Assembly: GCA_030425485.1 (NCBI GenBank)
Contig: JAUIAM010000003.1
Span: 1 to 64,000 of the forward strand
DNA: 64,000 nt
DNA from: Verrucomicrobiia bacterium
GTDB taxonomy: Bacteria; Verrucomicrobiota; Verrucomicrobiia; Opitutales; Cerasicoccaceae
Direction of reading: 5' to 3'
Shown here in pieces: positions 23,619 through 40,668 of the stretch (within the stretch, counting starts at the first letter, position 1; each line of letters starts with the position of its first letter). A program made the translations under genes and the position numbers. The notes under the pieces were generated by a model. The model was given only the letters and a program-made list of their open reading frames with translations. It was not told the DNA's origin and searched no databases.

Positions 23619-24806
23619 ATGCCATCTTTACGTTTAAGTCGATTCTGTCGGCCCGAGGTTTTGGCGTCGATCCGCCCGGAGCTGCTGCGCTGTTTTCTTG
23701 AGCCTTATCAGTCCTATTTTGAAGGACGTGGCTTTGACCTTGAATGTCTGCGTGAGCATTCCGGGGTTGAGACGCGACGGCACTTGTCGGGTATTCTGAT
23801 GGCGCCGACACCGGAGGTTCCACCGATGCTGGTGGACGCGCTCTATTGCATTCATGAGGTTGCGGTCGATGTGAACACGGATCAGTTGGAGCGCACCGTT
23901 GAGAGCGAAGGTGTGACGCTCGCTACGAATCCGTCCCTGCTGGAAATCGCCCTCTCGCTGTGGATAGCGGCCCCCGAGGCATTGAAAGGGATACACCGGC
24001 GCGGGCTGACCACCCGTCGGCGTTCCTATGTTTACTTCAGTGCGGAGTACTCAGCCGAGGGGGCTTTTTCACTCAATAACGAGCGTGTCCGGCAGTTGGA
24101 GAACTGCCTGGCACTCTACTTCAAGCGAAAAAATCGCGGGGATGGCTGCAAGGTTTACCATTATTCGGATGAGCACGAGCACAGCTTCCTGATCAGCCAC
24201 GGCGAGCTTTACCGGCGGGAAGCGGTTTGGGAGGAAGGGCGTCCTGGGATCATCGCTTTCCGCCCCAAAAAATACGATGCGGTGGTGTACAACAGCTTTA
24301 CCGAAGAGCTGGGGATCAACGCGCCGACCGAGACCCTGCGAGAGCACTACCGCAGGCAGTTCGGCTTTTATCTCTTTGGCCGCGAGAACCATTTCCCGAG
24401 CCGGAGCAAATATACGCTGGAGCCCTTGCTGCGGGATCGGGAGGCGTCGCTCTTTACCGGCGATGTTCCTGAAATCCAATGGGCCCGCTTATCGGAGCTG
24501 AGCTACGCCATCGAAGACAGCACGCCGGAAGTTCGCACGCACAAGGCCAGCGACGTGTTCATCGCATTGGAACGCCACCGTCATGATGTGCCGCGCCGTA
24601 TTCGTCCGGTCAAGGCGACGTTCCGGCTGACGTTTGTCGAGCAGTCCAAGTCGCGCACGCTGACGATAAAACCCACCAATATCGCGCTCTACAGCCGTGG
24701 TGAAGACAGTCCGGTGATTGAGGATTGGCTTCACCGAAGGGGGTTCATCGTGCGCAGCAAAGTCACGGGCCATGAGCAGTGCGAGCATCTTCTGGACATC
24801 GATTGA
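23619..24806 (+). CDS. Unrecognised protein A of the recombinase-linked set
   Basis: 395 residues and no family recognised. It has no signal peptide or membrane segment, is rich in Arg and Glu, and looks cytoplasmic and mixed alpha/beta. Notable parts are a basic 'RRGLTTRRRSYVYFSAEYS' region near 130-150 and a conserved-looking tail 'RTLTIKPTNIALYSRGEDSP' then 'IEDWLHRRGFI'. The gene overlaps the next frame by 35 bases, which indicates one transcript. It begins 36 bases after the sugar locus and is convergent with the serine-recombinase module, so it probably belongs to the integrated element. It could be a regulator, a DNA-binding partner or a defence component. Confidence 0.7.
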   Translation: MPSLRLSRFCRPEVLASIRPELLRCFLEPYQSYFEGRGFDLECLREHSGVETRRHLSGILMAPTPEVPPMLVDALYCIHEVAVDVNTDQLERTVESEGVTLATNPSLLEIALSLWIAAPEALKGIHRRGLTTRRRSYVYFSAEYSAEGAFSLNNERVRQLENCLALYFKRKNRGDGCKVYHYSDEHEHSFLISHGELYRREAVWEEGRPGIIAFRPKKYDAVVYNSFTEELGINAPTETLREHYRRQFGFYLFGRENHFPSRSKYTLEPLLRDREASLFTGDVPEIQWARLSELSYAIEDSTPEVRTHKASDVFIALERHRHDVPRRIRPVKATFRLTFVEQSKSRTLTIKPTNIALYSRGEDSPVIEDWLHRRGFIVRSKVTGHEQCEHLLDID

Positions 24807-25809
24807 GGTGATCGGTTTCGGAGCACGCGACGCGGCGATTCGACATTATCTGAGTGAGGCTTATGATCAGGTACACCCGTATCTTATGCCGTGTCCCGAA
24901 TTAACGGTGCAGATTGCTTGTAAGCGGACGCGTGAAGGTCATGCTTGCATGTATAGGATTGTCGAGGAAGCAGAGCCAGACGGCACTTATGCTGCTGTCT
25001 GCGACGATCACTTTTGTCCGACGAGATTCTATACCCGCGAGGAACTGGTCCGCTACACGATCAACCCGCAGATCCTAGTTCCGGCCATCGCTCGCTGCTT
25101 GGGATTGCACCCACAGGTCAGCTCGGTTGTGGACGATGTCTGGCAGGTCGGAACTCTTCCGGTGGCAACGGAGCACACGCTGGTGCTCTTCACGCGGGTC
25201 AGGTATGAGGATGCGATGCAGCGGGTGCTGGAAGCACTCATCATTAAAGGGAGTAACCGTTTCATACTGGTAACGCCCACGGCCCGATATTTGAACGAGA
25301 CGAGTCGGAGCCTACTGGCACGGGCGGAAAGCCTCTCCTTCCCCTTGGATGAAGTCACTGTCATCAACGACCACGAACCGGTCCTGACCGAGGCCGGGCG
25401 CGTGCGCTGGCAGAAGACGAAAGAATCCATCGGTGGCAGTCGTGTGGTGGAAGCTGTCTTTCCAACGCCACCAGGGGCAATGTGGCAGGACCTGTCGCTG
25501 GTGTTTCGTGACGGACATACGTTGACGGCCTCTATTGGCTCCACTCGGGCTACCTACACGTTCCAGTCGATGGGGATGGTGAACCGGAAGAAGATGACTC
25601 CGGATGAGCAATGGCTATTGCTACGACACTTTGCCGAGGAAATGGGCACCTTCACGTGGCAAAGCAAATACGCCGATCCGCGAAACAAGAAGCGTAAGTC
25701 CCGCTTGAGTTCCGGCCTCCGGGCTGTGTTTGGCATCCCGGGAAGCCCTTTTGTCTACCGCAAGGAGTGCCGAGGGTGGGAATGCGTTTTTAACATTCGT
25801 ATGGACTGA
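24772..25809 (+). CDS. Unrecognised protein B of the recombinase-linked set
   Basis: 345 residues from the ATG at 24772. An upstream ATG at 24718 would lie deep in gene A. No family recognised. The N-terminal half has a Cys/His cluster: 'LMPCPELTVQIACKR', 'EGHACMYR' and 'VCDDHFCPTRFYTREELVRY', possibly a metal site. The middle part 'NRFILVTPTARYLNETSRSL' looks like an alpha/beta core. The C-terminus 'GLRAVFGIPGSPFVYRKECRG' then WECVF is distinctive. It is coupled to gene A by a 35-base overlap and followed 26 bases later by a small coiled-coil gene. Confidence 0.7.
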   Translation: MSSASIFWTSIEVIGFGARDAAIRHYLSEAYDQVHPYLMPCPELTVQIACKRTREGHACMYRIVEEAEPDGTYAAVCDDHFCPTRFYTREELVRYTINPQILVPAIARCLGLHPQVSSVVDDVWQVGTLPVATEHTLVLFTRVRYEDAMQRVLEALIIKGSNRFILVTPTARYLNETSRSLLARAESLSFPLDEVTVINDHEPVLTEAGRVRWQKTKESIGGSRVVEAVFPTPPGAMWQDLSLVFRDGHTLTASIGSTRATYTFQSMGMVNRKKMTPDEQWLLLRHFAEEMGTFTWQSKYADPRNKKRKSRLSSGLRAVFGIPGSPFVYRKECRGWECVFNIRMD

Positions 25810-25835
25810 TTTTATCTATAAACACAAACGTAATA

Positions 25836-26213
25836 ATGAAAATAGACGACGAACTGAAGCGTATCGAGCAAGAGAAGAAAAATCTGCAAAAGCGAAAACA
25901 ACAACTGCTGGAGCAGAAGAAAAAGCGAAAGGCTGCTTTGTCCAAACTTAACTCTCTGGTCAAGCAGAGTGGATTCGATACGCCGAAGGCGCTGGTAGAG
26001 GCGTTGATCGAGACGTATGACATTCGCTTGCATCAAGGCCGTGATACCGCCCCGGCCAAACGGCGCAAGCACACCCGGATGACGCCGGAGCTACGCAATC
26101 GGATCAAGGTCATGCTGAAAGCGCAGTCGATGAGCCGGGTATCGAAGGAGTTGCAGATCAGCTACGCGGTCATCGCCAAGGTGGCCAACGGAGCCTACAA
26201 CAAGCTCAAGTAG
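25836..26213 (+). CDS. Small coiled-coil DNA-binding-like protein
   Basis: 125 residues. Residues 1-45 are a highly charged coiled coil (repeated E/K/Q heptads). After a linker, residues ~75-125 are basic, with a helix-turn-helix-like ending 'MSRVSKELQISYAVIAKVA'. The architecture, oligomerisation helix plus C-terminal DNA-binding unit, resembles nucleoid-type or MerR-like dimers without matching a named family. It ends 5 bases before the convergent recombinase-partner gene. It is probably a regulator of the element. Confidence 0.75.
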   Translation: MKIDDELKRIEQEKKNLQKRKQQLLEQKKKRKAALSKLNSLVKQSGFDTPKALVEALIETYDIRLHQGRDTAPAKRRKHTRMTPELRNRIKVMLKAQSMSRVSKELQISYAVIAKVANGAYNKLK

Positions 26214-26218: not shown

Positions 26219-26506
26219 TTAGAGCAAGCGTCGCTCCTGTTCTCTCGGTTCGATCAGGCGGAGGTTCATGATACGGGTGATGGCGGAACGGTCCATGCCG
26301 CTGATGGCGGCCAGTTCAGCGTAGTCGCGGACTTTCCCTTCCGCCAGCCACTCGTCAAAGACGATGGCGAAGGCCATCAGGCGGGTCTCGCGGGGAACGG
26401 GCGGGGGCAGGCGTTTCGCCTGCGGCGGCTCGCCCGGCTTGAGGGTGCGAGCCCCGCGCCTGCCCGCGCCGAAATAAACCTTGCGTGTGATGGTCGGGCC
26501 ACTCAT
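26219..26506 (-). CDS. Small HTH partner of serine recombinase
   Basis: 95 residues from the ATG at 26506, which overlaps the recombinase stop (ATGA). A longer frame upstream is an out-of-frame shadow of the recombinase. The C-terminal half contains a helix-turn-helix, 'YAELAAISGMDRSAITRIMN', like that of small DNA-binding proteins encoded right after recombinases of this type. The N-terminus is basic ('ITRKVYFGAGRRG'). It probably regulates or directs the recombinase. Coupled translation with the recombinase supports a shared role. Confidence 0.8.
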   Translation of the reverse strand: MSGPTITRKVYFGAGRRGARTLKPGEPPQAKRLPPPVPRETRLMAFAIVFDEWLAEGKVRDYAELAAISGMDRSAITRIMNLRLIEPREQERRLL

Positions 26507-28026
26507 GCCATCGCCTCCGTTTCGAGAATCTTGATGCCGCTGGGCCGAAATGTGACGGCGATCTCGCCCCGCTCTCCATCGTAGGTTACCTGCTGTACAA
26601 GGAGCCTCAGCAACCGAATGCGCTCTTGCAAAGTAAGCGATTCCCACGCCGGGAAGAACGCCCGGATAGCGGCGTGCAGGTCATCGGCACTCAATACGTC
26701 TTCCTGCAGCGCGGTGAGCCGAGCATTGAGTTCGGTCAACTTGGATTCGATGTCGCGCTGCTGGCGCTGGCAATCGGCCAGCAATGCGATGTTGCTATCG
26801 GCGGACGCTTTGCGCTGCTCCTTTCCAAGGGACTCCAACTGGCGCTCCAGCTTCCGTCGGACCTTGTCAGCCTCGGCTATCTCGTTTTGGCGATAGGCCT
26901 CATGCTGGGCGATTACCTGTTCGCGCAGATCGGCGTCCTGTCCAATGCGTGCTATCTCATTGACCACAAATTTTTCGACCTCGGCGGCGGGTAGGGAAGG
27001 GGAGGGGCACTTGTTCCAACCCTCCTTGCTGGCCCGGTTGCACACGTAGTAGCGGTAGACCTTGTTCTTGCGCCTGCTGGTGTGCGAATGCGTCATGGGC
27101 GCATTGCAATGCCCGCAACGCAGAATGCCTCCGAGCAGTGCGTGGTGCTTGTTGCGCACGCGTGCCCCGGCGCACTGGCAGTTTTCCTTCAGGCATTGCT
27201 GGACGGACGCGAACAATTCCTTATCCACGATCGCCGGAAACTCGGCCTCCGCGATGTGGCCCTTGTAGTTGACCTGGCCGATGTAGGCCACGTTGGTGAG
27301 CATCCCGTGCAGCGACGATTTGGTAAACGAACTGCCGCCATAGAGGATGCCTTTCTGCGTCACCCATTGCTTCATGGTGATGCCCCGGCGATTCAGTTCC
27401 TCGGCAGTAGCCTGCAAGGACTGCGTGGAAAGGTAGAGCTTGAAGATTTCCCGCACACGCAGAGCCTCCGCTTCGTTGACGACCAGCGCCCCGCCGCCGG
27501 GAGCGATGTCGTAACCGAGGAAGGGCTTACCGCCCACCCATTTGCCTTTGCGGCGGGCAGCACCCATCTTGTCGCGGGTACGCTCGGCAATGGTCTCTCG
27601 CTCGAACTGCGCGAAGGAAAGCAGAATGTTCAGCGTGAGCCGCCCCATCGAAGTCGATGAGTTGAACGCCTGCGTCACCGAAATGAACGCCGCGTTACTG
27701 CGATCTAGAATTTCCATGATGCGGGAGAAGTCCAGCAGGCTGCGCGAGAGGCGATCCACCTTGTAGACTACGACAACATCGACCTTACCCGATTCCACAT
27801 CCTCCATCAGTCGTTTCAGGGCTGGGCGGTCCATGTTCGCGCCGGTGAAGCCGCCATCATCATAGCGATCCGGCAGACATACCCATCCCTCATGGCGCTG
27901 GCTGGCAATGTAGGACTCGGCCGATTCGCGTTGGGCATCGAGGGAGTTGAAATCCTGCTCCAACCCCTCGGTGACTGACTTGCGCGTATAGATCGCGCAA
28001 CGCAGTGTTTTCTTTTCCGATGTCAT
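26503..28026 (-). CDS. Large serine recombinase (integrase/resolvase family)
   Basis: 507 residues. The N-terminal catalytic domain starts 'CAIYTRKSVTEGLEQDFNSL' with the nucleophile at Ser17 and includes the 'VYKVDRLSRSLLDF' helix. The recombinase domain (~160-270) is followed by the zinc ribbon 'LGGILRCGHCNAPMTHSH' with a second Cys pair at 'YYVCNRASKEGWNKCPS'. A coiled coil (~370-440) and a basic tail complete the large-serine-integrase plan. It is in a four-gene overlapping minus-strand unit with a DUF2924 gene upstream. It likely integrates and excises the prophage or the wider element. The att core is not identifiable by eye. Confidence 0.93.
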   Translation of the reverse strand: MTSEKKTLRCAIYTRKSVTEGLEQDFNSLDAQRESAESYIASQRHEGWVCLPDRYDDGGFTGANMDRPALKRLMEDVESGKVDVVVVYKVDRLSRSLLDFSRIMEILDRSNAAFISVTQAFNSSTSMGRLTLNILLSFAQFERETIAERTRDKMGAARRKGKWVGGKPFLGYDIAPGGGALVVNEAEALRVREIFKLYLSTQSLQATAEELNRRGITMKQWVTQKGILYGGSSFTKSSLHGMLTNVAYIGQVNYKGHIAEAEFPAIVDKELFASVQQCLKENCQCAGARVRNKHHALLGGILRCGHCNAPMTHSHTSRRKNKVYRYYVCNRASKEGWNKCPSPSLPAAEVEKFVVNEIARIGQDADLREQVIAQHEAYRQNEIAEADKVRRKLERQLESLGKEQRKASADSNIALLADCQRQQRDIESKLTELNARLTALQEDVLSADDLHAAIRAFFPAWESLTLQERIRLLRLLVQQVTYDGERGEIAVTFRPSGIKILETEAMA

Positions 28027-29311: not shown

Positions 29312-31288
29312 TTACTCATCGGGATCTGTGTCAACCGGCGGCTCAGGCTCGGGGATCTCCAACGGCAGGACGTGGGCGGTGGAGATGTCCTGCTCTTTGG
29401 CGATAGTATAGGAAGTGCTTTTGAAGTAATGCGTGCTGCTCTGAACAAAGGCGTCCTTACGCAGCACGTGCAGGTGCTCACGGCGGATGAGAAACGCCTG
29501 CTCCCCCGCCTCGTGATCCGCCGCCAGTGTACCAAAGCGCCCCCGCCGCAGGTTGGTCAGAGACACGGTGCCGTCCGCGCCAACCACGTAGCCTTCGACG
29601 GAAAGGATTTCATCACCGAGGAACAGGAGCACGGTGTCGGCGTCGGCCTGTGCTGGGGTCTGCGTGGCCAGCGTGGCCCGGTCAACGGCGTGGGCGTCGA
29701 TCACGGCATCTACCCCGTTTTCCAATAACTCGGCCGTCAGCGTGCCGGTGACGGCGAAGAACCGCGCCTGTGAGAGGAAGGCGTAGTTCAGGTCATCGGT
29801 GGAATGAAAAACGTTGTAGCCGGTGATGAGGCTGTGCTCCCGAGCGCCCAGGTGCGCGAGGGCAACCTCGGGTTCCGCCACACCCGATAACTCGGCGGGC
29901 AGAACGAACACCGCCTCGAAGGGCATGGGGTCGGCGTCGTAGGTCGGCTGCTCAGGCGGTGTATAGGGAGCGGGGGTGACGCCGGAGACCTGATTAGCCA
30001 CATCGAGCACGAACTGAAGCTCCAACTCGGCATCGTCGCTGCGGCGGTGGGCAATGCCCGTCACCCGGCAGTTGAGCAGGTAGTTCGCCTGCGGGAAGGG
30101 ACGCAGCCGGATCGGGTCGCCGGGGTTGAGCCCGATGCCCTTGGAGTAATGCACCATGACCTTGCCGCCGACCTCGGGGAGCGCCGCCCGGCGTCCGGCC
30201 TTGGCCACCTGAGCGTTGGCGACACTTTGCCGGGTTATCCAGCGCCGTTGGAACGTGACCGGCTCCTGCGTCCCGTTCAGCGCATGGGCGGCGGCATCAT
30301 GGTGGATGGCGACCGATTCCTTGAACTCGCGGTCCCGGTCGGTATAGACGAGCCGCGTCTCGCTGTTGACCTGGCTGAAGGCGTCGCTGTCAATCTCAGG
30401 AAAGTCGGTCTGGTCGGCGGTGTCGATGACGGGGGCATCGGTAAAATCCACCGGCAGCGAGGCCGAGCCGAAACGGTACTTGCCGTTTTTCTGATAAAGG
30501 AACCCGTCGAAGTATCCCAACATCTCTGCCAGGGACTGCGGGAGGGATTGAGCGTTGTTGATGAGCGGCGAAATGCCCATGTCGGCCTCCACCAGTTTGG
30601 CGGACGTTTCCTCGCCGCTGCCGTCGAAGTCAGACAGGTAGATGCCCAAGCCGTAACGCGGGTGGGTGGCCAACTCGATGGCGGCATGAATCGGACACAC
30701 GTCGCCGGAAAGGTCCGGGTTGGCGTAGCCGGGAATCACCGTGCGGCGCGAGACCACGAAGTCCACCTGCGGGGCGGATGTGCGGTCACGGCCAAAGATC
30801 AAGGGATCAAAGACGACATAGCACTGCCCCCGGTAGGCCGGATGGCCTAGCGGTTCCAGCAGCGAGTCGGCCAACTGGCTGTCGCTGCCCCAATAGAACC
30901 GGGCCTGCCCGTAATTGGGCAGCGTGATGAACGAGAACTGCCCGGCCACAGCGGTAAGCGGCCCTTCCCAGATCTTTACTGTGTCGATGTAGATGGCGTG
31001 CAGGGTATCGACCGGCCCGCTGCAAATCGCCCCGGCGAGCCCCGCCTGATAGGTGTAGCCCACCGTGGCGGTGGACGTGCTATTCTTGCCGCTCTGGTAA
31101 GTGGTGGTGATGGGGATGGCCTGCGGGTTGATGGCTGACGTGATCCATGTCAGACTCAGGCGCACCGTACCCGCCGCCCACGGGAGCGGACGGGCTTCTT
31201 CGTTGGTGGCGACGCGCTCGGCCTGGACATTGGTCAGGCTCTGGACCGGCGCGGCCACCGCCTGCGTGCTGCGAAACAGAAAGCTCAT
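29312..31288 (-). CDS. Tail tip/baseplate hub protein (Phage-tail_3, GTA megatron-like)
   Basis: 658 residues from the ATG at 31288, which overlaps the NlpC stop (ATGA). The longer frame upstream is a shadow of the NlpC gene. Recognisable parts are a hub-type N-terminal region ('TVIPGYANPDLSGDVCPIHA' then 'YGLGIYLSDFDGSG'), a Phage-tail_3-like middle ('DPIRLRPFPQANYLLNCRVT') and a C-terminal receptor-binding-like beta region. The order DUF2163, NlpC/P60, large hub is that of Rhodobacter-type gene transfer agents and related siphophages. It probably forms the tail tip that contacts the host envelope. Confidence 0.82.
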   Translation of the reverse strand: MSFLFRSTQAVAAPVQSLTNVQAERVATNEEARPLPWAAGTVRLSLTWITSAINPQAIPITTTYQSGKNSTSTATVGYTYQAGLAGAICSGPVDTLHAIYIDTVKIWEGPLTAVAGQFSFITLPNYGQARFYWGSDSQLADSLLEPLGHPAYRGQCYVVFDPLIFGRDRTSAPQVDFVVSRRTVIPGYANPDLSGDVCPIHAAIELATHPRYGLGIYLSDFDGSGEETSAKLVEADMGISPLINNAQSLPQSLAEMLGYFDGFLYQKNGKYRFGSASLPVDFTDAPVIDTADQTDFPEIDSDAFSQVNSETRLVYTDRDREFKESVAIHHDAAAHALNGTQEPVTFQRRWITRQSVANAQVAKAGRRAALPEVGGKVMVHYSKGIGLNPGDPIRLRPFPQANYLLNCRVTGIAHRRSDDAELELQFVLDVANQVSGVTPAPYTPPEQPTYDADPMPFEAVFVLPAELSGVAEPEVALAHLGAREHSLITGYNVFHSTDDLNYAFLSQARFFAVTGTLTAELLENGVDAVIDAHAVDRATLATQTPAQADADTVLLFLGDEILSVEGYVVGADGTVSLTNLRRGRFGTLAADHEAGEQAFLIRREHLHVLRKDAFVQSSTHYFKSTSYTIAKEQDISTAHVLPLEIPEPEPPVDTDPDE

Positions 31289-31740
31289 GACTGCATCAGG
31301 CGGTAAACAGCATCCTTGCGACGGGCATAGGTCGGATCGTCCAACTGGCCAAACGTGGTTCCCAGCCCGCGTATCGAGTGAATGAATACGGGCGGCGTAA
31401 CCAGCATCCCGAGGTGATGCGGAGCACGGCCCATCATAAACGTCACCATATCGCCCGGCATGAGGCGCGTGCCATCTTCCAACCGCTCGCAGTTGGGAAT
31501 ACTCTCCAGGTATTCCCGCAGTCGCGAATCCTCCCGGTGCGCGGTGGCATCGAGCGTGTAGCTCGGCGGCTTCAACTCGTGCGGGAAGCCGCAGGTGGTG
31601 GCAAGTTGATGCACCAGATGGACGCAATCGCAGCCACCCTGACACACACCCTGAAACGGCACGAAGGGCGTGCCAATCCAACGCCGGGCTTCGGCTTCCA
31701 ACATTTTTACTCTTTCAGGATTTTTGAAGAAGGGTCTCAT
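31285..31740 (-). CDS. NlpC/P60 tail-associated peptidoglycan peptidase
   Basis: 151 residues from the ATG at 31740 (MRPFF). The catalytic Cys is in 'CQGGCDCVHLVHQL' (Cys39 in the DC position) and the His in 'APHHLGMLV', after 'LMPGDMVTFM'. This is the NlpC/P60 fold found as the tail-tip cell-wall hydrolase in GTA-like tails, where it cuts peptide bridges during DNA entry. In the absence of another lysozyme-like gene it may also serve at lysis. It overlaps the hub gene by 4 bases. Confidence 0.88.
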   Translation of the reverse strand: MRPFFKNPERVKMLEAEARRWIGTPFVPFQGVCQGGCDCVHLVHQLATTCGFPHELKPPSYTLDATAHREDSRLREYLESIPNCERLEDGTRLMPGDMVTFMMGRAPHHLGMLVTPPVFIHSIRGLGTTFGQLDDPTYARRKDAVYRLMQS

Positions 31741-31816
31741 ATCCAAAAGGGGTAGGCACGCGCAGTGCCGTAGGGGGCTTGCCCCCCTCAATGCGGTGAA
31801 GCTGGCTCAGCTTCAC
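31741..31816. repeat. REP-like palindromic element 1
   Basis: The arms GTGAAGCTG (31796-31804) and CAGCTTCAC (31808-31816) form a 9-bp hairpin with a 3-base loop, overlapping the DUF2163 stop. A second hairpin, GGGGG/CCCCC, lies at ~31773-31788. The block CGCAGTGCC plus the GTGAAGCTG hairpin recurs in opposite orientation at 44682-44756. Confidence 0.7.
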
Positions 31817-33285
31817 TTCTTGCCACCGCCGGAGGCTGTGCTGGCGAGGGGCATGGCCTTGAGGGTCGGGTTTTCGTAGGGGATGAACGGGTGGCCGCCG
31901 TAATTGACGAAGTTGTCAAAGCGCTGTTTGCAGCAATCGGGAGTGCGGTCACAGCCGGGCCAGGCCGAACAGGAGTCCCCGGGTTGAGATGTGCGCAGGG
32001 AGGCGTTGAGGTAGAGCCGATGGCGGGTCTCGGAGAGAATTTCCGCGTAGCGGATGGTGCGGACCTCGACCTGCGGGGCGGTCCCGATTTCGATATAGCC
32101 ACCCGCCAGCCAGTCGGCGGCTTTGTCCGCGAGGGAGGCGGACTCGAAATCGATACTGCCGCCGTCCGTGTCGATAGCTTCAATGGTGCCGGTCAGTCGG
32201 TAGGTGGCCGAGGGCACGCGGCAGGTAGAGCCGTCGAAGAGCTGGTAGTTACAGCGGGTTTGAAGGAAGAAGCGCGGCACGCGCTTTTCACCATAAGAAA
32301 GTGGGCTCACCGCCTTGGCCTTGAGTGTGTAGCCTTGCCGAGTGACGGATTCGATGATACCCCGGAACAGGATAGCCGGAGCTTCCAGCACGAGGCCGGT
32401 CGCTTCATCGACGTGCGCGAGGCTAAGCACGATGCCAGTGGGCTGACCGATGTGGATGGGCAGCCAGTCCTCAAACGGGTTACCCACCCAAGCAAAGAGT
32501 TCGAGGTTCAGCTTGTCGGTGTCGCCCTCGGTCGAGACGGACAGGCCGCTGTGGTCGATGGGGACCGGGTGCCAGGTGACGCCGCTGTTGACCGGTGTGT
32601 CGTGGCTGGTGAGATGGAGCGAATAGATGTCGCGCACGCCATAGCGGCGAGTGATGCGGTAGAGATAGACCGGACGACGGGTGGCGAGCGTATTGGGGGC
32701 CGCGTATTCCCCGGGCAGTTCGATGCCGGTGAAGCGGATGCGTGCGTGGTTGTCGGCCTCGAAGTCGTATTCGATTTCGTCGCTGGAAAGGCGCACGAGA
32801 AGCAGACGCGAGACCTGCCAGCTATCGGCGTTTCCGGGCAAGACTTCATCGAGCGTGATCTTGGAGCGCGTGGTGAAGGCGGTCGTTTCGACGAGCAGAA
32901 TTTTTCTGAAAACGCACCGGCCATCCGGCGAACGAAACGCGAGGTGCTTTCCTTTCAGGTGCGACCAGTCGGAGAAGATGGACGCTTCGATGAACACGGT
33001 GGCCGACGCACTCAGTACCGTCACATCCTCTGCGCCGGTCGCCAGCCAAAAGGCCTTGAAGCGTCCGCTACGGGCCGCGAAGAATGCCTCCACCGCATCA
33101 AGGGCGGCGGCGTCCGGAACCACGGTAACAATTTGCAGGCGCTCCTGTGTGCTGGCCTGCACCGGCATGGCCGGTTGCGCTCCGAAGCCGATGTCGGTGA
33201 CCTCCGGCTCGTAGTTCAGGGTCCGGCGCACCGACTCACCCAAATCAGCCACCAGCGGAAAAACGGGTATATCAAGGTAGGTCAT
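31813..33285 (-). CDS. DUF2163/BR0599-type tail hub protein, fused to a DUF2460-like N-terminus
   Basis: 490 residues. Residues ~1-200 resemble the DUF2460 tail protein ('RLQIVTVVPDAAALDAVEAF', 'GRFKAFWLATG'). The rest is DUF2163 ending in the BR0599 Cys-rich module: 'RCNYQLFDGSTCRVP', then 'DSCSAWPGCDRTPDCCKQRF' and 'FVNYGGHPFIPYENP'. In the Rhodobacter gene transfer agent the corresponding hub binds an iron-sulfur cluster through four Cys, and they are present here. The gene overlaps the von Willebrand-domain gene upstream by 4 bases. A long plus-strand frame over it is a shadow. Confidence 0.85.
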   Translation of the reverse strand: MTYLDIPVFPLVADLGESVRRTLNYEPEVTDIGFGAQPAMPVQASTQERLQIVTVVPDAAALDAVEAFFAARSGRFKAFWLATGAEDVTVLSASATVFIEASIFSDWSHLKGKHLAFRSPDGRCVFRKILLVETTAFTTRSKITLDEVLPGNADSWQVSRLLLVRLSSDEIEYDFEADNHARIRFTGIELPGEYAAPNTLATRRPVYLYRITRRYGVRDIYSLHLTSHDTPVNSGVTWHPVPIDHSGLSVSTEGDTDKLNLELFAWVGNPFEDWLPIHIGQPTGIVLSLAHVDEATGLVLEAPAILFRGIIESVTRQGYTLKAKAVSPLSYGEKRVPRFFLQTRCNYQLFDGSTCRVPSATYRLTGTIEAIDTDGGSIDFESASLADKAADWLAGGYIEIGTAPQVEVRTIRYAEILSETRHRLYLNASLRTSQPGDSCSAWPGCDRTPDCCKQRFDNFVNYGGHPFIPYENPTLKAMPLASTASGGGKK

Positions 33286-34475
33286 CGAAGGCCCAAGAGG
33301 GTAAAGATGTCGTTCAAGTAGGTCTGGGCCGTGCGGCCCGAGGGGATGCCCACTTCGTAGAGGACGTACTGCGTGGACAGCGTCGGGCCGAGAGCGGCGT
33401 AGCTGCCCGCGCCCGAGACGGCGGCGGCCAGGTGAGCGTTGAACGCCTCATTGTCATCTTCCCAACTGCTGGCAGTCGGATCGACCGAATACACCTTGCA
33501 GCGGGAAAACTCGCGCCGGGTAAACTCCGCCTGAAAGTTACTGTAGTCAGTGGAGAACGAATTGGTGGGTTCGTTTTCAGGGTTGCGAGGCACCCGGTGG
33601 TAGCCGCTGCTGGCCTCGTTGATGAAGGCGAGTGAGACGTAGCGGGCGGCTTCCTCTCCGGAAATATGGTAAGCCAGCCGGTCCAGCCAGCGCTCGCTTG
33701 ACCAGTTCTGGACACGGACAAAATGATCGGCCTTCTCCTGGTCGCCCCCGTAAATCATGTCGCGCAGGAGCACCTTTAAATTGTTGGCGGCAGCGGTGAC
33801 GTTGGGCACGTCGGCGTCCATGCTGCCCGAGGTGTCGATGAAGAACAGGAAATAGAGGTTCGCCAGAATCGAAAGCCAGTTGCTTTCGGTGTCCGTTTCG
33901 GTGAAGACAAACTCCGCGCTGACCGCCTCTAGCAGTGTCGCGCCTTTGAAGTTGATTTCAAAGGCCCGGCCACTGCCACCGAGCAATTCTGTATCCACGG
34001 ATTCGATACGTCCCAGATCGAGGGGCACGATCACGTCGCCTGTCACACAAGGGAGCGCTTCCTCTAGTGTGAGCACCGGGCCAAACACGGAAGCGATCTT
34101 GGCGGCAGCGGTAATGTCCCCGAAGGGTCTCGCCGTCCCCACCCATTGCCCGGCAGTCATGTTGGCGGCAGCACGTTCCAGCGTGACGGTATTCCCGGCT
34201 ACTTGGGCAACGATTTGCTCACGACCCCACCGGGGCACAGCGGCTTGGGCCGACTCCTGCGCGGCCCGAATAACGGCCTCCACCGCGAAGGTCCGGGCGG
34301 CGGTGTCGGTGGCGATGGTGTAGTTGCCGCTTCGGCGAGGCTGCGTGAACCACGCGGTCCGTTCCTCCAGACCGGTCACACCCTCGGCCACCGACGAGCG
34401 GTGGGCCTGCCTATGCTTGACCGCGAACGACCAGTCCGGTGCAAAGGGAATGAGCGTGTGGTTGTCGAGGAGCAT
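33282..34475 (-). CDS. Tail protein with a von Willebrand factor A-like insert
   Basis: 397 residues. Residues ~1-200 look like a phage tail component related to DUF2460/DUF2163 neighbours (beta-rich, 'HTLIPFAPDWSFAVKHRQAH'). Residues ~205-390 begin with a hydrophobic strand and the metal-ion-dependent adhesion motif D-T-S-G-S (214-218, within FFIDTSGSMDAD), followed by a helix and the von Willebrand A-type alternation. This domain is uncommon among tail proteins and suggests ligand or protein binding. The gene lies between the tape measure and the DUF2163 hub, the usual place of a distal-tail protein. Confidence 0.72.
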   Translation of the reverse strand: MLLDNHTLIPFAPDWSFAVKHRQAHRSSVAEGVTGLEERTAWFTQPRRSGNYTIATDTAARTFAVEAVIRAAQESAQAAVPRWGREQIVAQVAGNTVTLERAAANMTAGQWVGTARPFGDITAAAKIASVFGPVLTLEEALPCVTGDVIVPLDLGRIESVDTELLGGSGRAFEINFKGATLLEAVSAEFVFTETDTESNWLSILANLYFLFFIDTSGSMDADVPNVTAAANNLKVLLRDMIYGGDQEKADHFVRVQNWSSERWLDRLAYHISGEEAARYVSLAFINEASSGYHRVPRNPENEPTNSFSTDYSNFQAEFTRREFSRCKVYSVDPTASSWEDDNEAFNAHLAAAVSGAGSYAALGPTLSTQYVLYEVGIPSGRTAQTYLNDIFTLLGLR

Positions 34476-34479
34476 GGTG

Positions 34480-36702
34480 TTAGCCAGGGATGCCGAGTCG
34501 GAGTTTGTTGCGGGTCATGATGTCGAGGACGGCGGTTTCGCCCTCGGCAGTTTCGAGGAAGCGGCGCAGGTCGTTGCGGGTGCCGGTCACGGCGATGTTC
34601 ACTTGCCCACTGGTCTGCGATTGCGTGGATGTCGAAATCCCAGTGTCTGCCAGTCCACCTTCGGCAAAACCGGGCAGACTCGGCAGCGTGGGCCGGTTGA
34701 CCCGCAACTGCCCCACGAGGTTGTCAAAGTAAGCCGGTCCCTGACGCGAGACCACGTCAGCGGGCACCACGAATTCGCCTCGGTGGACGATGCCCGCCGG
34801 TTCGTATTTTCCACCAAGACCAGTGTAGCCGCCTTCAGCAAAGCCGCCGACCGAGGCCAATACGGCGGTCAACACCGCCGCCCCGATGATGGCGGCAGCA
34901 CCCCACGAGCCGATGGAGGCCAGCATGGCAGTCGGAGTCATCGCGGTCTGTTTGACCGCCTCCTGCGCCACTGTGCTGGTGGTGTCGGCCTGCTTAAGGG
35001 ATTCGCCCATGACGAACATGCGCAGGCGCTCGGCAATCCAACTAGTTGCCATCTGGGTGAAAGACTGAATCAATGAGCCGCGAATGGTGCCGGTGACGTT
35101 GAGCAGGGCTCCCTGCCAAGTCTGCGTGCGCGTAATCAACCCCTCCATGCTGCTGGACAGGCCCGATTGCAGGGCGCTGTTGATGTTGCTGAAGGTGCTG
35201 GTCGCGGTGGATTCGAGCGCCTCCATTTGCGTGGCAACTTCCTCCGTGGGCGACATGGCCGGTTCCACGCCATCGGGCATGGCCTGGCTTTCACGAAGCG
35301 CGATACGCTCTTCGATCAGCGCGTTCAGCCGTTCGGCAGCGCTCAGGCCGCGCTCAGATTCATCGGCGGACAAGCCGAGGATTTCCCGGCTGGCGTCGAG
35401 GTTGGCATTCAACTGGTCGCGGATGAAGTCGGAGAGTTCCGCCACGCCCTCGCGCTGCTCGGCCAACAGGTCATTAAACTCCCGCGCCGGTTCGACCACA
35501 TTATTGCCCCAATCAACACGACCAAAGCTGACCGTCCCGATCTGCGTGCCGTCCGTGAACGGCAGAGCGGCGGTAATGGCGTTGACCCGCTCGATCACGC
35601 CGTTGAGCAGGTTCTCGAAACCAGCGGTAATGGCGTTGAGGACAGCGGAGAAAGCGCGGCCCAAGAGATTGACGGCTTCCTCAAAGATCACCCGGGCCTC
35701 CGAGCCGATTTTCCGAAACCCCGCAGAAAGCCAGACCACCGGCGTTTCCAATGCATCGATCAAACTGGTGGCCGCTTTCGTCCCGAAGGTCATGACGCCG
35801 TTCAAGACCACCTTCCAGCCTTCGCCATCTTCACCCAGCCACGAGAGCGCATCGTCGATCATGCGCTGGGCCGCATTCGTACCCATCTCGAAACCTGCTT
35901 CGATAGACAGCCCGATGAACTGCGCAAAGGTGCCGTCGCGGAAGGATTCCAGGGCCAGATCAAGGAAGCCCCCGATACGCTGGCCCGCCGCGGTCAGGTC
36001 AATCGAGTTGAGCGCTTCCAACGGGCCGAGCAACTCGTCGGCCAGCATATCCCCGATCCCGGCGAAGAGTTGGCGGGACTTGTTGGGGATGCGGCCCATG
36101 AGGGTGTCGATGCGCTCGAACTGCCGGGCGTTGCGCTCCATCACCTCCGGCATGGCCCCGAGCGAACGGGCCACATCGTCGATGTCGCCGGAGACGAACA
36201 GGCTTTGCAGTTCGGCCCCGGCCCGTCCGAAGATCCGCATGGCAGCAGCCGAGCGTTCAGCCGGATCTTCAATAGCCCGGATGGCGTTGCCGATTTCGCT
36301 GAACTGCTCGGTCGGGCTTTTCTGCAACAGGTCCTCGTAGGAGAGGCCGAGAGCATCGAAGGCCTTGACCGGCTCCTGCAAACCCTCGGACGCTTCCACG
36401 AGGGACTTCTGCATTTTGTTGATCGCAAGCCGGGAGTTGTCGGCGCTGATACCGTTGTCCTCGAAGGCCTGACGCAGAATGATGAGGTCTTTGACCGCCA
36501 CCCCCGTCTGGCTGTGAAGGTGATCCATGTCCGCGCCCAGTTTGATGATGTCACGGGCACCGCTAATGACGGTTCGGGCCGACAGGTAGGCGGCGGCGAA
36601 ACCCGCCACGCCCTTGATCAGCCGTCCGAAGCCCGCCGTGGCCTGTTCCAGCCCGGCGAGCTTGGAGCGGATGTCGATCAGGACACTGACACGGGAATCC
36701 AT
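34480..36702 (-). CDS. Phage tail tape measure protein
   Basis: 740 residues, the longest structural protein. The helical N-terminus has 'FAAAYLSARTVISGARDIIK' and 'DMDHLHSQTGVAVKDLIILR', as in the TP901-like tape measure core. Long amphipathic helices follow, and a hydrophobic Gly/Ala segment ('AAIIGAAVLTAVLASVGGFA') sits near residue 620. The C-terminus has 'GEFVVPADVVSRQGPAYFDN', also usual. It sets tail length and probably reaches the host membrane. The long plus-strand frames over it are shadows. Confidence 0.92.
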   Translation of the reverse strand: MDSRVSVLIDIRSKLAGLEQATAGFGRLIKGVAGFAAAYLSARTVISGARDIIKLGADMDHLHSQTGVAVKDLIILRQAFEDNGISADNSRLAINKMQKSLVEASEGLQEPVKAFDALGLSYEDLLQKSPTEQFSEIGNAIRAIEDPAERSAAAMRIFGRAGAELQSLFVSGDIDDVARSLGAMPEVMERNARQFERIDTLMGRIPNKSRQLFAGIGDMLADELLGPLEALNSIDLTAAGQRIGGFLDLALESFRDGTFAQFIGLSIEAGFEMGTNAAQRMIDDALSWLGEDGEGWKVVLNGVMTFGTKAATSLIDALETPVVWLSAGFRKIGSEARVIFEEAVNLLGRAFSAVLNAITAGFENLLNGVIERVNAITAALPFTDGTQIGTVSFGRVDWGNNVVEPAREFNDLLAEQREGVAELSDFIRDQLNANLDASREILGLSADESERGLSAAERLNALIEERIALRESQAMPDGVEPAMSPTEEVATQMEALESTATSTFSNINSALQSGLSSSMEGLITRTQTWQGALLNVTGTIRGSLIQSFTQMATSWIAERLRMFVMGESLKQADTTSTVAQEAVKQTAMTPTAMLASIGSWGAAAIIGAAVLTAVLASVGGFAEGGYTGLGGKYEPAGIVHRGEFVVPADVVSRQGPAYFDNLVGQLRVNRPTLPSLPGFAEGGLADTGISTSTQSQTSGQVNIAVTGTRNDLRRFLETAEGETAVLDIMTRNKLRLGIPG

Positions 36703-36708
36703 GAGTTA

Positions 36709-36978
36709 TCAGGGCAAGGGTTGAACGGGCACGCCTGCGCCGCCGTAGAGACGTTGCAGGTCGGCGGACTTGCTTTGCGTAGTTGATTTGTCAATCCGCA
36801 GAGAACGCTCGAATCGTCCGAGGGCCTGCGCGGCGGGTTTGCTCCAGATGGCGGATGCGGCCAAGGCGCGGGACTGGGTGTGCCAACGCAGGGATTCCAT
36901 GCGCCGCTCTTGATTCTGCTTTATCAATAAGAGCAACTCCGGCAGCGACAGCGTGGCTGCGACTTCGGCTACGCCTTT
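36709..36978 (-). CDS. Tail chaperone C-terminal extension made by -1 frameshift
   Basis: 89 codons with no start of their own at the 5' end, in the -1 frame relative to the chaperone gene ending at 36969. The overlap carries GGCAAAG (minus strand, 36981-36975), which differs at one base from the lambda G-T slippery GGGAAAG. The product would be a G-T fusion that recruits tape measure and tail tube. The gene order chaperone, extension, tape measure is exactly the one in which this frameshift is known. Frameshifting itself is inferred. Confidence 0.65.
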   Translation of the reverse strand, partial: KGVAEVAATLSLPELLLLIKQNQERRMESLRWHTQSRALAASAIWSKPAAQALGRFERSLRIDKSTTQSKSADLQRLYGGAGVPVQPLP

Positions 36979-37349
36979 GCCGAGGATGCAGGCGCATTCG
37001 GTGCAGAGATCGGCAAGACCGACTGTACCTTCTGCCCGCTGGCGGCGATGGGAAGCAGCGCCTCGTTCACCTGCGCCCGCCGCTCGCCCCAGCGGCAGGC
37101 ATTCTTGAAATTTATTCCGTGACCCTGTTCGCAAATATCCAAGAGCGAATCGACCGTCAACGTCTCTGCCCAGCCCTCGGGCTGATTGCAAAGAAACTCG
37201 GCTAGGCGTTCCTCCTGATCAACCAGGCGCAGGTAATCGGGGAACTCCCGAATCTTCAAAAGACGGACGGTGACCGTTTCTTCAGCACCGGCGTTGGTTT
37301 TTACAGCGAGGTTAATTCCCCCGCCGATGATGGCGTTGTTCGCGTTCAT
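36969..37349 (-). CDS. Tail assembly chaperone (G-like)
   Basis: 126 residues from the ATG at 37349. It overlaps the preceding gene's end by 38 bases, and upstream in-frame starts are shadows. It is mixed alpha/beta, with 'VTVRLLKIREFPDYLRLVDQ' and 'GWAETLTVDSLLDICEQG' typical of lambda-G-type or T5-type tail chaperones. It sits immediately before the tape measure and ends in a slippery region giving a longer product. Family naming is by position and general pattern. Confidence 0.7.
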   Translation of the reverse strand: MNANNAIIGGGINLAVKTNAGAEETVTVRLLKIREFPDYLRLVDQEERLAEFLCNQPEGWAETLTVDSLLDICEQGHGINFKNACRWGERRAQVNEALLPIAASGQKVQSVLPISAPNAPASSAKA

Positions 37350-37596
37350 ATTGAGCTGCTTGTTCGGGGTCGTATTCATCGACCGGGTTGTCGAGGCCGA
37401 GAGCGGCGATGCCCGCCTCCAACTCTTCCTTGGTGTCAAAATCCACGATTTCATGAACCGAGTCGGTCTGCCCGTCGGTCTCGAACGCGCTGAGTACGCG
37501 TTCTCCGTCGTGGATGCAGCGCCATACGATAGTCCCGTTTGCGGGAGCGCTAGCGCGGTTGAAAGTGAGGTCGCCCTCCTGAATAACTTCGATCAT
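37312..37596 (-). CDS. Small tail-cluster protein, unrecognised
   Basis: 94 residues, acidic. The N-terminus 'MIEVIQEGDLTFNRAS' leads into 'GTIVWRCIHDGERVLSAFET', a beta-rich fold, then an acidic helix and a basic tail RHHRRGN encoded inside the next gene's start. It lies between the LRR gene and the tail chaperone. No family recognised. A small structural or decoration protein is plausible. Confidence 0.65.
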   Translation of the reverse strand: MIEVIQEGDLTFNRASAPANGTIVWRCIHDGERVLSAFETDGQTDSVHEIVDFDTKEELEAGIAALGLDNPVDEYDPEQAAQYEREQRHHRRGN

Positions 37597-37598
37597 AA

Positions 37599-38540
37599 CT
37601 AAACGGTGATGGACCAGCCTCTGCCGGTCAGGGTGGTTTTCGCGGCTGCGGCTTCGGTGGAGCGCAGGTTGTTGGCCGAGCCTGGATTGCCGGAGTAATT
37701 GAACTGACCGTTGTTGGTAGTAGTGGTCGCAGCTAACTGGATCAGGGCATTATCAATGGCCTCAGCGGTGAGCTGATTATTGTGCGCCCGGACATAGCGT
37801 ATCTTCTCCAAGTCCGCTAAATCGGGTAGCCCCGTCAACTGGTTGTCGTTGCAAACAAAGTAAAAGAGTTCAGTCATTCCGGCCAGAGCGGGTAATTGGG
37901 CCAACGAGTTCTCATTGCAATAAAGGTAGCGCAGAGACGTCAACCCGGTCAGTTCCGGCAATTCCGTGAGTTGGTTCTTCTGGCAGTGTAGACTGTCCAA
38001 AGTCGTCATGTGACTGAGCGGGGGCAACTCTGTAAGTTGGTTGCCATCCACGGAAAAGGTTTTTAACCCGGTAAGGTTGTCCAGTCTCGGCAATTGCGTG
38101 AGAGCGTTTTTGCTGATGGCCAAGTTTTCAAGACTGGGCACACTCACAATACCGCTGGCATCCTCAAGTTCACTGCTATCCATATAAAATGTCTTAAGAT
38201 TCACAAGAGGGCTCAGGTCAGGAATGACGCGAAAGAGGCTTCCGTAGGAAAACTCCAACGTGACCAGTTCGACCATGTGTGTGATGGTGGGGAAACGTTC
38301 CAGAGGGCAACCGTAGAGAGTTATACTGCGCAGATGAACGAGGTTTTCGAAGTGCAACTCATAGACCTTTGTTCCGTCCAAATATAAAGAGGTCATGGCC
38401 GGATCGCACCACATACGCAGGTGGGGAACACGCTCACCCTCGGGGTGAGAAGCGATGCTGTCCGTCAATTCTGAAAGGCGACGAGGTTCGCCGGTGGGCA
38501 GCCCGGAAGCCGGGCCGAAGAGATCGTTCAGATTACTCAT
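37599..38540 (-). CDS. Leucine-rich-repeat protein in the tail cluster
   Basis: 313 residues. From about residue 75 to 265 there are roughly eight leucine-rich repeats of ~21 residues with the period L-x-x-L-P-x-L and a following N/C-x-L position, such as 'NQLTELPPLSHMTTLDSLHC' and 'NQLTELPELTGLTSLRYLYC'. The C-terminal 50 residues 'NNGQFNYSGNPGSAN' to 'GWSITV' resemble ends of phage or cell-surface LRR proteins. It lies between the tail tube and tail chaperone genes on the late operon. It could be a virion decoration or receptor-contact protein, or acquired cargo. Confidence 0.82.
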   Translation of the reverse strand: MSNLNDLFGPASGLPTGEPRRLSELTDSIASHPEGERVPHLRMWCDPAMTSLYLDGTKVYELHFENLVHLRSITLYGCPLERFPTITHMVELVTLEFSYGSLFRVIPDLSPLVNLKTFYMDSSELEDASGIVSVPSLENLAISKNALTQLPRLDNLTGLKTFSVDGNQLTELPPLSHMTTLDSLHCQKNQLTELPELTGLTSLRYLYCNENSLAQLPALAGMTELFYFVCNDNQLTGLPDLADLEKIRYVRAHNNQLTAEAIDNALIQLAATTTTNNGQFNYSGNPGSANNLRSTEAAAAKTTLTGRGWSITV

Positions 38541-38543
38541 GAC

Positions 38544-39086
38544 TCAAGCGTCCTTTCGCAGATAGACGGTGCCCACGGGCGAGAGTACATCGACTTTCAT
38601 CTCGTAGCCGAACCACTCATCGCCCACTTCGGGCTGGTTGTTCAGGCGCACATTGCACCAGAAATCCTTGTGTATGAGGCGCGGACTCTGAGCGTGTTTG
38701 TCGTCCCACACGCGCAGTCGGGCAAAGCCGTTCAAATTCTGCGGACGCTGGAGCGGGTTGATTTTCCGGTAATCGGGATCGGTCCCGGTCAACTCGCCCG
38801 ACACTCCATAGAACAGTGCCTCCACCGCCCGGTCATCGACCTCTTCCAATTGGAGCAGGTAGCCGAGACGTAGTTGTGTCGTGAATACACGGTCGAGAAT
38901 CTTCACGCTCCGGTAACTGCCGAAGTGATCCTTCGTCTCGGCTTGGTTCTGGAACGAGAAGGTTTTGACGTTGCCAAACATCGCGCTGGCTTCGTCGTAG
39001 GTGGCTTCGCTTTCAGGGACCACCGTGGTGCCGGTGATGAGCGAAAAATCACCGCTGCCGATCAGGAGTAAATTCGGGTTGGGCAT
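38544..39086 (-). CDS. Putative major tail (tube) protein
   Basis: 180 residues from the ATG at 39086 (MPNPNLLLIG). The longer frame is a shadow of the neighbour. Beta-rich; 'LLLIGSGDFSLITGTTVVPE' opens it, and 'EEVDDRAVEALFYGVSG' and 'WFGYEMKVDVLSPVGTVYLR' follow. Size, fold type and location between the tail-terminator-like gene and the tail chaperone fit the tube subunit of a siphovirus. No diagnostic motif, so the call is positional. Confidence 0.65.
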   Translation of the reverse strand: MPNPNLLLIGSGDFSLITGTTVVPESEATYDEASAMFGNVKTFSFQNQAETKDHFGSYRSVKILDRVFTTQLRLGYLLQLEEVDDRAVEALFYGVSGELTGTDPDYRKINPLQRPQNLNGFARLRVWDDKHAQSPRLIHKDFWCNVRLNNQPEVGDEWFGYEMKVDVLSPVGTVYLRKDA

Positions 39087-39090
39087 GGAC

Positions 39091-39525
39091 TTAGGGCTGG
39101 ATGGTTTTGACCTGAAAATTGCAGAAGTAAATGATGAGGCCGCTATCGAGCGGACCGGCTTCATAGGCGGGCGTGTCAACCTGAAGGACGTGGCGCAGAC
39201 CTCGCTCGATCGCCCATGACGCCTGATGCAGTAAGTCCAACACCCGCTCGGCCACTTGCAGGGCGTTCTCGCCGGTCTTGTTCTGGGCGGGGTTTTCCAA
39301 GACGGACACCACCACCTCGTTGTGCAGAAGCAACCGGGGGCTGTCGGCCTTGGGCACAGAACCGGAGGACTGCACCAGCACAAGGCAGAGTCCCTTTTCC
39401 TTCAGTGCCGTCTCCAAGCGCCGGTTGTGGTCAGCGGAAATGTTGGCAATGATTTCCAGTTCGGACAGGAACAGATCGGTACGCAATTGCGCGGTGACAG
39501 CGGGGATGACTTCGGAGAGCTTCAC
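39091..39525 (-). CDS. Putative tail terminator/completion protein
   Basis: 144 residues from a GTG at 39525 placed 13 bases after a GTTGACA element, with no Shine-Dalgarno sequence. Alpha/beta; 'GLCLVLVQSSGSVPKADSPR' then 'LHNEVVVSVLENPAQNK' resembles the Gp37/tail-terminator group that caps the tube at the head-tail joint. It directly precedes the tube gene. Call based on position, size and general pattern. Confidence 0.6.
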   Translation of the reverse strand: MKLSEVIPAVTAQLRTDLFLSELEIIANISADHNRRLETALKEKGLCLVLVQSSGSVPKADSPRLLLHNEVVVSVLENPAQNKTGENALQVAERVLDLLHQASWAIERGLRHVLQVDTPAYEAGPLDSGLIIYFCNFQVKTIQP

Positions 39526-39545
39526 AAGGGAAGCGTCCTGTCAAC

Positions 39546-39815
39546 TTACTCTCCGAAAATGACTGGGAAAGCTGAGATCGCAGCAAATATTGCAGCCAAA
39601 AGAGTCACCCAAAATATCGGATCACGATACCAGATTCTGGGTTTCAAATCAGTATGCCTTCTCCGTGCGACCTCAATTTCAGCAATCTTACAGTGTGCTG
39701 ACCTTGTATTGGGATTTATGTGATCAAGAGCACCTTGCAATTCTTCATCGGAACACGTCTTTATCCATTTCCTAAACTCAGTTTTTGAGGACGAAGCTGC
39801 TTCTTCGGGAGACAT
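39546..39815 (-). CDS. Cargo (moron) membrane protein, unrecognised
   Basis: 89 residues. The N-terminal 65 are charged and helical, and the last ~20 form one transmembrane helix ('DPIFWVTLLAAIFAAISAFP'). The DNA is markedly richer in A+T than the flanking tail genes. Its stop codon directly abuts the GTTGACA element of the next gene. It is likely an independently acquired lysogenic-conversion gene, such as a superinfection-exclusion protein, but no family is recognised. Confidence 0.7.
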   Translation of the reverse strand: MSPEEAASSSKTEFRKWIKTCSDEELQGALDHINPNTRSAHCKIAEIEVARRRHTDLKPRIWYRDPIFWVTLLAAIFAAISAFPVIFGE

Positions 39816-39848
39816 AGATAAATTTCCTGAACTGAAGTATATTGTTTT

Positions 39849-40645: not shown

Positions 40646-40668
40646 ACCGCTAACGCGGTGTCAAAACC

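Follow-up and report, generated by a model that had tools for sequence, protein, structure and literature searches.

A candidate control module of temperate phages: an overlapping gene pair with a predicted RdgC/RexA-type fold in prophage-like loci of Verrucomicrobiota and other phyla

The RexA protein of phage lambda was reported in 2024 to have the RdgC fold and domain homology with Iml3 and Chl4; according to the same report, it binds DNA non-specifically and biases the lambda switch to the lytic state (PMC11077077). The likeness of Chl4 and Iml3 to RdgC had been described earlier (PMC4080450). A defence pair of the RexAB type with RexB located in the membrane was reported for Pseudomonas putida in 2026 (PMC12894663). 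Here, we describe two overlapping genes, A and B, from a 64,000-nucleotide (nt) stretch of a Verrucomicrobiia genome (assembly GCA_030425485.1, contig JAUIAM010000003.1, positions 1 to 64,000; hereafter the window). Four annotation libraries lack the pair, which occurs in prophage-like loci across several bacterial phyla and may act as a phage control module related to RexA.

Both genes are located on the plus strand, overlap by 35 nt and are followed, after a gap of 26 nt, by a third gene, C (Table 1). Gene A starts 35 bases after the end of a sugar gene. Gene C ends at 26213, 5 bases before position 26219, the stop-end of the small gene in a minus-strand serine recombinase operon. This arrangement, including the sizes of A (395 amino acids, aa) and B (345 aa), is the one given in an earlier note on this DNA. 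The chosen start codons are consistent with those of homologues. Ratios of nonsynonymous to synonymous differences (pN/pS), obtained from three comparisons per gene between the window and homologues from the same genus, were 0.35–0.36 for A, 0.31–0.33 for B, and 0.23–0.37 for C. Accordingly, all three are real, constrained genes, and the A-B pair in the window is intact and under purifying selection.

The earlier note treated A, B and C as one three-gene set. The widely conserved unit comprises two genes, A and B, while C is a separate family and not a third member. It was detected in 8 of 288 genomes of the phylum, all within the order of the window, and occurs also alone: in the genus, copies lacking A-B are located between two conserved genes of the chromosome. 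All four genomes searched in the genus have a relative of C at this chromosomal position (L068, L069, L071, and L072), and C may therefore be a regulatory protein that is ancestral or has been domesticated. Comparison of C with PADLOC-DB gave only weak matches to PDC-S06 (E-values, E, of 0.012 and 0.032).

No significant match for A or B was found in Pfam, PHROGs, NCBIfam, or PADLOC, and nothing appeared at E 1 among the anti-phage defence profiles of PADLOC-DB. Pfam scans of 20 relatives of A (alignment A1) produced weak single matches only, and the RdgC family (PF04381) matched neither A nor any of these 20 sequences. Among 19 relatives of B, four families were hit by one member each, with DUF6197 being the best (E 0.00017). 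The previous statement that the two proteins match no family is therefore upheld by sequence. Translated searches (tblastn) of 50,697 phage records with A and B found nothing. Single-protein scans revealed no relative of either protein in the viral_contigs collection and none of B in genome_contigs, while sequence profiles of the PDB yielded weak rows only (annexin with E 0.07 for A; best E 0.22 for B). Also, literature searches gave no description of A-B in these phyla among the matches listed.

Gene A is present in 22 of 288 genomes of the phylum (30 places) and, by profile search, in 13 of 273 genomes of the order. It also occurs on 5 IMG/VR viral contigs and at 23 loci in genome_contigs, labelled as Verrucomicrobia, Kiritimatiellales/Pontiellaceae, Planctomycetota, Gemmatales, Elusimicrobia, Fibrobacter, and others; these are mostly metagenome bins whose taxon labels may be wrong, and the set is biased towards the query. 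Two further matches to A (G288 contig 124 and G441 contig 9) are broken by a stop codon and look like decayed copies. Single-sequence searches recovered B in only 8 of the 288 genomes, probably because this protein diverges faster than A.

The structure of A was modelled with AlphaFold2 on 28 sequences, with a predicted local distance difference test score (pLDDT) of 85 and a predicted template modelling score (pTM) of 0.66. In a Foldseek search against the PDB, E. coli RdgC was the first match (E 4e-4, probability 1.00). Two RdgC chains were the only ones at E <0.001, and chains of CENP-N/Chl4 followed from E 0.002. Structural alignment with VIA-align gave Z 10.1 for RdgC (root-mean-square deviation, rmsd, 5.6; 225 residues; model positions 132–384), Z 8.9 for Chl4, Z 8.6 for CENP-L, and Z 6.7 for Iml3, with unrelated folds appearing from Z 6.6 down. 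CENP-N (6eqt_B) aligned over 182 of 205 residues (model positions 69–375) with rmsd 3.9 and Z 8.7, a value little above the Z 7–8 that is common among models without a clear match. The structure of RexA itself is not among the matches listed for A; those of RdgC and Iml3/Chl4 are.

Ten viral models in BFVD matched A at E 0.001 or better. Four of these are named as RdgC or recombination-associated proteins, three as exonucleases, and three have uninformative names; the best match (E 1.7e-5) is a phage protein named RdgC. Thus, A is predicted to fold like the DNA-binding proteins RdgC and RexA. Chromosomal RdgC-like genes were identified in 31 of 59 genomes of the phylum, at places other than A. 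Some rows of the chromosomal RdgC-like set prepared for hhalign are probably wrong reading frames, and nothing was drawn from that set.

The model of B (pLDDT 88.5; pTM 0.65) was obtained from an alignment of 24 rows, six of which are of the window type and span the C-terminus; the gene downstream of A at L081, a non-homologue, was left out. The N-terminal Cys/His cluster mentioned in the earlier note is real. It comprises C50, H57, C59, C77, H80, and C82 in the window protein, and Cys is widely conserved at columns 50, 59, 77, and 82 (23/24, 20/24, 16/21, and 17/22 aligned sequences, respectively). Foldseek revealed nothing below E 0.001 for B. The middle part, residues 97–222, aligned with the C-terminal domain of the CRISPR ancillary nuclease Can2 over 109 residues (Z 7.3, rmsd 2.8 Å), although values below Z 8 may reflect a common arrangement only. 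Weaker rows included several restriction-enzyme-like proteins, and those below Z 5 (Argonaute, receiver domains, others) were not interpreted. B as an active nuclease was rejected because no D/E-K active-site pattern is conserved in 97–222; conservation of charge reaches 60% of rows or more at three columns only, namely basic 101 (16/24), basic 104 (15/24), and acidic 146 (18/24).

No transmembrane-like segment was found in any of 11 B proteins tested, as compared to a score of 5 for lambda RexB by the same measure. A wider sweep of 19 and 25 rows (alignments A2 and A7) flagged only L064 and L076. The C-terminus of B is of at least four kinds across the family, as judged by eye, and that of L094 resembles sigma region 4 (E 0.003, below the Pfam cut-off). 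When L099 is compared with L088 and L089, A is 86–88% identical and the first ~210 residues of B are 57–63% identical, but the rest of B does not align. The C-terminus of B, a predicted DNA-reading domain, is thus exchanged within the family, which suggests sequence-specific targeting. At one locus (L055:9152–11278), a 709-aa reading frame begins with A and no separate B is present, possibly due to fusion of A with another domain.

For the analysis of gene neighbourhoods, 55 A loci were reduced to 50 non-redundant loci by merging five duplicates; the partial matches L073, L074, and L075 were left out. Neighbour families were defined by a simple open reading frame caller and blastp clustering. 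They were named from one representative per family (two for LexA), in some cases by eye, and the integrase representative was below the Pfam cut-off. A B-family gene follows A in 43 of the 50 loci, and three of those without it are at a contig edge (L049/L090, L051, and L098). The first possible start of B is inside A in 41 of the 43 loci, the exceptions being L089 and L099.

At least one early or replication family of phages was found within 9 kb of A in 36 of 50 loci. The families located within this distance include the HTH_17 type (14 loci), AAA_24/Sak4-type ATPase (14), superfamily 2 helicase (13), serine recombinase (12), and DUF2924 (10); nuclease and polymerase-like genes are also among the neighbours. 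With a slightly wider family list, to which HTH_17 and a nuclease family were added, 34 loci have early-type genes codirectional with A and downstream of it, 3 have them only divergently upstream, and the remaining 13, which include the window, yielded none within 9 kb. A LexA-like repressor directly precedes A, in the same direction, in eight loci (L065, L066, L077, L078, L081, L083, L100, and L101). Its end ranges from 86 bases inside the A reading frame to 51 bases ahead of it. The two repressors that were scanned against Pfam (L100 and L101) contain LexA_DNA_bind and Peptidase_S24. An automatic search revealed notable inverted repeats before some of the eight, such as a perfect palindrome of 18 bases in L083 and a repeat with 8-base arms in L078, but none in L081, L100, and L101; sigma70-like hexamers around the palindromes were read by eye. 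Restriction or defence genes are located just upstream of A in L047, L051, L053, L054, and L061, the five loci scanned (type III, type I restriction, type I methylase, HmaC, and type IIG), which points to a possible cargo hotspot.

A recognised integrase is located near A in 16 of 50 loci. The co-occurrence of the set with DUF2924 and the recombinase, proposed as a check in the earlier note, was not borne out as a rule. DUF2924 was detected in 47 of the 288 genomes (74 places listed), and at least 4 of the 30 A places are within a few kb of it (G000, G127 twice, and G247), many contigs being short; 4 of 50 loci have a tyrosine-integrase-like family instead. Since the type of integrase varies while A-B stays, the pair is clearly not bound to DUF2924. 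The idea that these genes belong to a mobile element is supported by the early genes, integrases, and viral contigs listed above and, in the window, from their position inside a repeat-bounded island.

The predicted fold class of A, the order repressor-A-B in 8 of 50 loci, and a soluble B with a predicted DNA-reading domain together point to a RexA-like control module, with B giving the sequence addressing. We tentatively propose, with slightly less than even confidence, that A-B is a two-gene module of temperate phages from Verrucomicrobiota/Planctomycetota-type bacteria, which consists of a RexA-like protein and a sequence-reading partner and tunes the repressor/early-gene switch. The observed basis comprises the two overlapping genes, their phage context, the repressor-A-B order in eight loci, and the exchange of the C-terminus of B. 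With its predicted RexA/RdgC/CENP-N-L fold, A would bind DNA, probably as a dimer, and clamp the duplex without strong sequence preference. B would be its cytosolic, translationally coupled partner, reading DNA sequence via the exchangeable C-terminal helix-turn-helix or winged-helix domain and placing A at phage operators. Together, the two proteins might tune the switch in the way lambda RexA biases the choice between lysis and lysogeny, with the soluble B standing in for the membrane protein RexB. Both folds are predicted; DNA binding, contact between A and B, and control of the switch are what we infer. The previous suggestion of immunity, regulation or defence functions is thus supported in part: immunity or regulation fits the fold type of A and the position behind a repressor, but defence is not supported.

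Several findings weigh against the control module. The template modelling scores of the A model to RdgC are low (about 0.33–0.41), and the domain arrangement may therefore differ. Comparison of A6 or A1 profiles with RexA (a two-sequence profile) or RdgC in hhalign gave a probability of 0.3% at most (0.1–0.3% for RexA), but the positive control, RexA versus RdgC, also reached only 0.1%, so that this test has little power. The match of B residues 239–341 to the winged helix of the response regulator PrrA is weak (Z 5.1, 84 residues). Four of the 50 loci (L055, L061, L081, and L091) have room downstream of A yet no recognisable B. The repressor adjoins A in a minority of loci, and the location of A-B ahead of early genes in many of them fits control of recombination or replication equally well. 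In the window itself, there is no repressor gene beside A and early genes are not within 9 kb, while promoter-like sites do not stand out (4 found, as compared to a mean of 2.3 and a standard deviation of 1.6 in shuffled sequences).

The window contains an island of ~57 kb at tRNA-His, which is bounded by a 265-bp direct repeat with two copies in the genome and includes the sugar locus, A-B-C, a prophage, and a pair of prokaryotic Argonaute (pAgo) and SIR2 genes (Table 1). The 88% identity of the repeats suggests that the island brought its own copy or grew by tandem accretion. Eight of ten prophage proteins tested have a named function; those identified are terminase, portal, protease, tape measure, tail, primase, and Sak4-like proteins. 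Related prophages are present on G000 contig 34 and on G225 contig 11. Both share three early proteins with the window at 81–89% identity, and most tail proteins of the latter are 87–93% identical. In both, C is located directly before the Sak4-like gene, whereas C in the window meets the recombinase end. The phage body in the window is thus inverted relative to C in comparison with its two closest prophages. No short attachment (att) cores were evident among 20 of 51 repeat families listed for 19–64 kb. No empty site was established: lexA was aligned in three relatives from the genus, the tRNA-His flank in one (G288), and the left flank of the window in none.

Table 1. Location of the A-B-C genes and of other features in the window
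Feature	Position	Strand	Remarks
Left 265-bp direct repeat	5751..6015	+	island boundary
Gene A, 395 aa	23619..24806	+	helical N-terminal region ~1–132; RdgC/RexA/CENP-N-L-type fold 132–384 (predicted)
Gene B, 345 aa	24772..25809	+	N-terminal Cys cluster; nuclease-like-fold middle 97–222, winged-helix-like C-terminus 239–341 (predicted)
Gene C, 125 aa	25836..26213	+	coiled coil and helix-turn-helix-like tail (by eye); order-level family, chromosomal copies
Small gene after recombinase	26219..26507	-	internal ATG 26507; weak match to PHROG 14161 'recombinase', E 3e-5
Large serine recombinase, 507 aa	26503..28026	-	Resolvase, Recombinase, and zinc ribbon; PHROG_95 integrase
DUF2924 protein, 177 aa	28023..28556	-	
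Prophage structural genes	29312..51600	-	tail, tape measure, protease, portal, terminase
Prophage early genes	52931..59892	-	DNA primase 54163–56328; Sak4-like annealing protein 58451–59434
Right direct repeat	63370..63633	+	88% identical to left; runs 6 nt into tRNA-His 3' end
tRNA-His	63628..63704	-	

The sugar locus (7012–23583), so named in the earlier note, contains two genes matching the sulfatase family, of which the genome has 36 matches. Genes resembling those for sugar use or transport, identified partly by eye, are located directly before A-B-C or C at prophage ends in L043, L044, L067, and L070 as well as in the window; this suggests that phages of the genus carry such genes as cargo. 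The stretch at 60258–63266 on the plus strand encodes an Argonaute (PADLOC pAgo_II, E 2e-197) followed by a SIR2 partner (Aga_SIR2, E 4e-122), has a GC content of ~40%, and is located just inside the right repeat at tRNA-His. It is a probable defence pair carried by the island. Two genes at 4471–5710 on the plus strand, just outside the left repeat, match the candidate defence pair PDC-M21A/B of PADLOC (E 5e-41 and 3e-43).

The inverted phage body bears on another explanation, which concerns only the window and is compatible with any reading of the family. A-B-C could be what remains of an older related prophage, or could be resident genes read through from the sugar locus, with the present prophage integrated behind C. 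This fits the short distance between the sugar gene and A, the end of homology of C to its relatives near the C stop, and the situation on G225 contig 14 (17 kb examined), where sugar-locus homologues and A, B, and C are present and the other proteins of the window phage are unmatched. The same contig, however, carries a 190-aa tyrosine-integrase-like fragment 6 kb after A, and in L042 A-B is located ahead of relatives of the primase and terminase regions of the window phage. Moreover, the genes are intact and under purifying selection, and everything lies between one repeat pair at tRNA-His. We consider this explanation less likely than not.

A poorer chance is given to A-B being primarily a system of Rex-type superinfection exclusion (abortive infection), in which A would sense replication intermediates of foreign phages and B would be the effector. 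The predicted fold of A and the repressor-A-B order in eight loci mirror cI-rexA-rexB, a RexAB-type pair is reported to protect Pseudomonas putida against phages (PMC12894663), and restriction or defence genes occur upstream of A in the five loci named above. The near absence of transmembrane-like segments from B argues against it, and B looks like a DNA reader rather than an effector. Also, neither protein matches PADLOC, and early-type genes follow A on the same strand in most loci.

Similarly improbable is an RdgC-like modulator of recombination or replication in the early module, with A encircling DNA and tempering RecA or Sak4-type annealing, and B acting as a loading factor. RdgC is the best structural match of A and a phage RdgC its best viral match, and the neighbouring genes for Sak4/AAA_24 ATPase, nuclease, helicase, and polymerase-like proteins agree with such a role. 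The Pfam RdgC family, on the other hand, misses A and its relatives in A1, and the chromosomal RdgC-like genes of the phylum are located elsewhere. The swapped DNA-reading domains of B suggest sequence-specific targeting, which RdgC is not known to require. A metabolic or sugar-locus function for A-B was rejected because phage early genes are located near 36 of 50 A loci.

The control module gives a testable identity to an overlapping pair of unknown genes in prophage-like loci of several phyla. If it is true, RexA-type proteins belong to a broad class of phage control modules, beyond lambda and actinophages, here with a soluble, addressable partner instead of the membrane protein RexB, and new bacterial relatives would be added to the fold of the kinetochore proteins CENP-N and CENP-L. 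A bolder version, which we regard as more doubtful than any of the explanations weighed above, is that A-B represents a new type of decision device in phages. The partner, its DNA-reading domain differing from phage to phage by exchange, would load a non-specific DNA clamp of the RexA/RdgC/CENP-N fold at chosen operators and so give each phage its own addressing, and the CENP-N-like domain order would point to a mobile-element origin of the kinetochore pair.

Among the known systems compared here, the resemblance to Can2 and PD-(D/E)XK-like proteins consists in the superposition of the middle part of B on the C-terminal domain of Can2; a conserved D, E, K pattern of the active site was not seen in B. 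CENP-N (Chl4) and CENP-L (Iml3) are eukaryotic centromere proteins, which were compared by structure, and helical matches can arise by chance. They align with A at Z 8–9, and the alignment of human CENP-N includes part of the helical region of A in the same order. In CENP-N/CENP-L, a pyrin-like helical domain precedes the sheet domain. In the model, the helical-then-sheet domain order of A resembles CENP-N more than RdgC does. Literature on RdgC with CENP-N or the kinetochore, on CENP-N/L with prokaryotes or pyrin, and on RexA with Chl4/Iml3 contained no bacterial protein with the two-domain order of CENP-N among the matches listed. RdgC differs from A, which has no Pfam RdgC match and possesses extra N-terminal helices and a coupled partner gene. 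The predicted model of A nevertheless falls into the RdgC fold, and RdgC is phage-borne as well: matches to E. coli RdgC were found in 430 of 50,697 phage records.

The comparison with lambda RexAB reveals both differences and similarities. A carries additional helices at its N-terminus, no sequence match to its counterpart was detected, and most A-B pairs are located with early genes and not behind a repressor. RexB is small, is located in the membrane and is predicted to have four helices, whereas B of the window is a soluble protein of 345 aa without a hydrophobic segment and with a predicted, exchangeable DNA-reading domain. At the same time, the predicted fold of A belongs to the RdgC-related class published for RexA (PMC11077077). 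Like RexAB, the pair is prophage-carried and, in 8 of 50 loci (the window not among them), it is located right after a phage-type repressor on the same strand.

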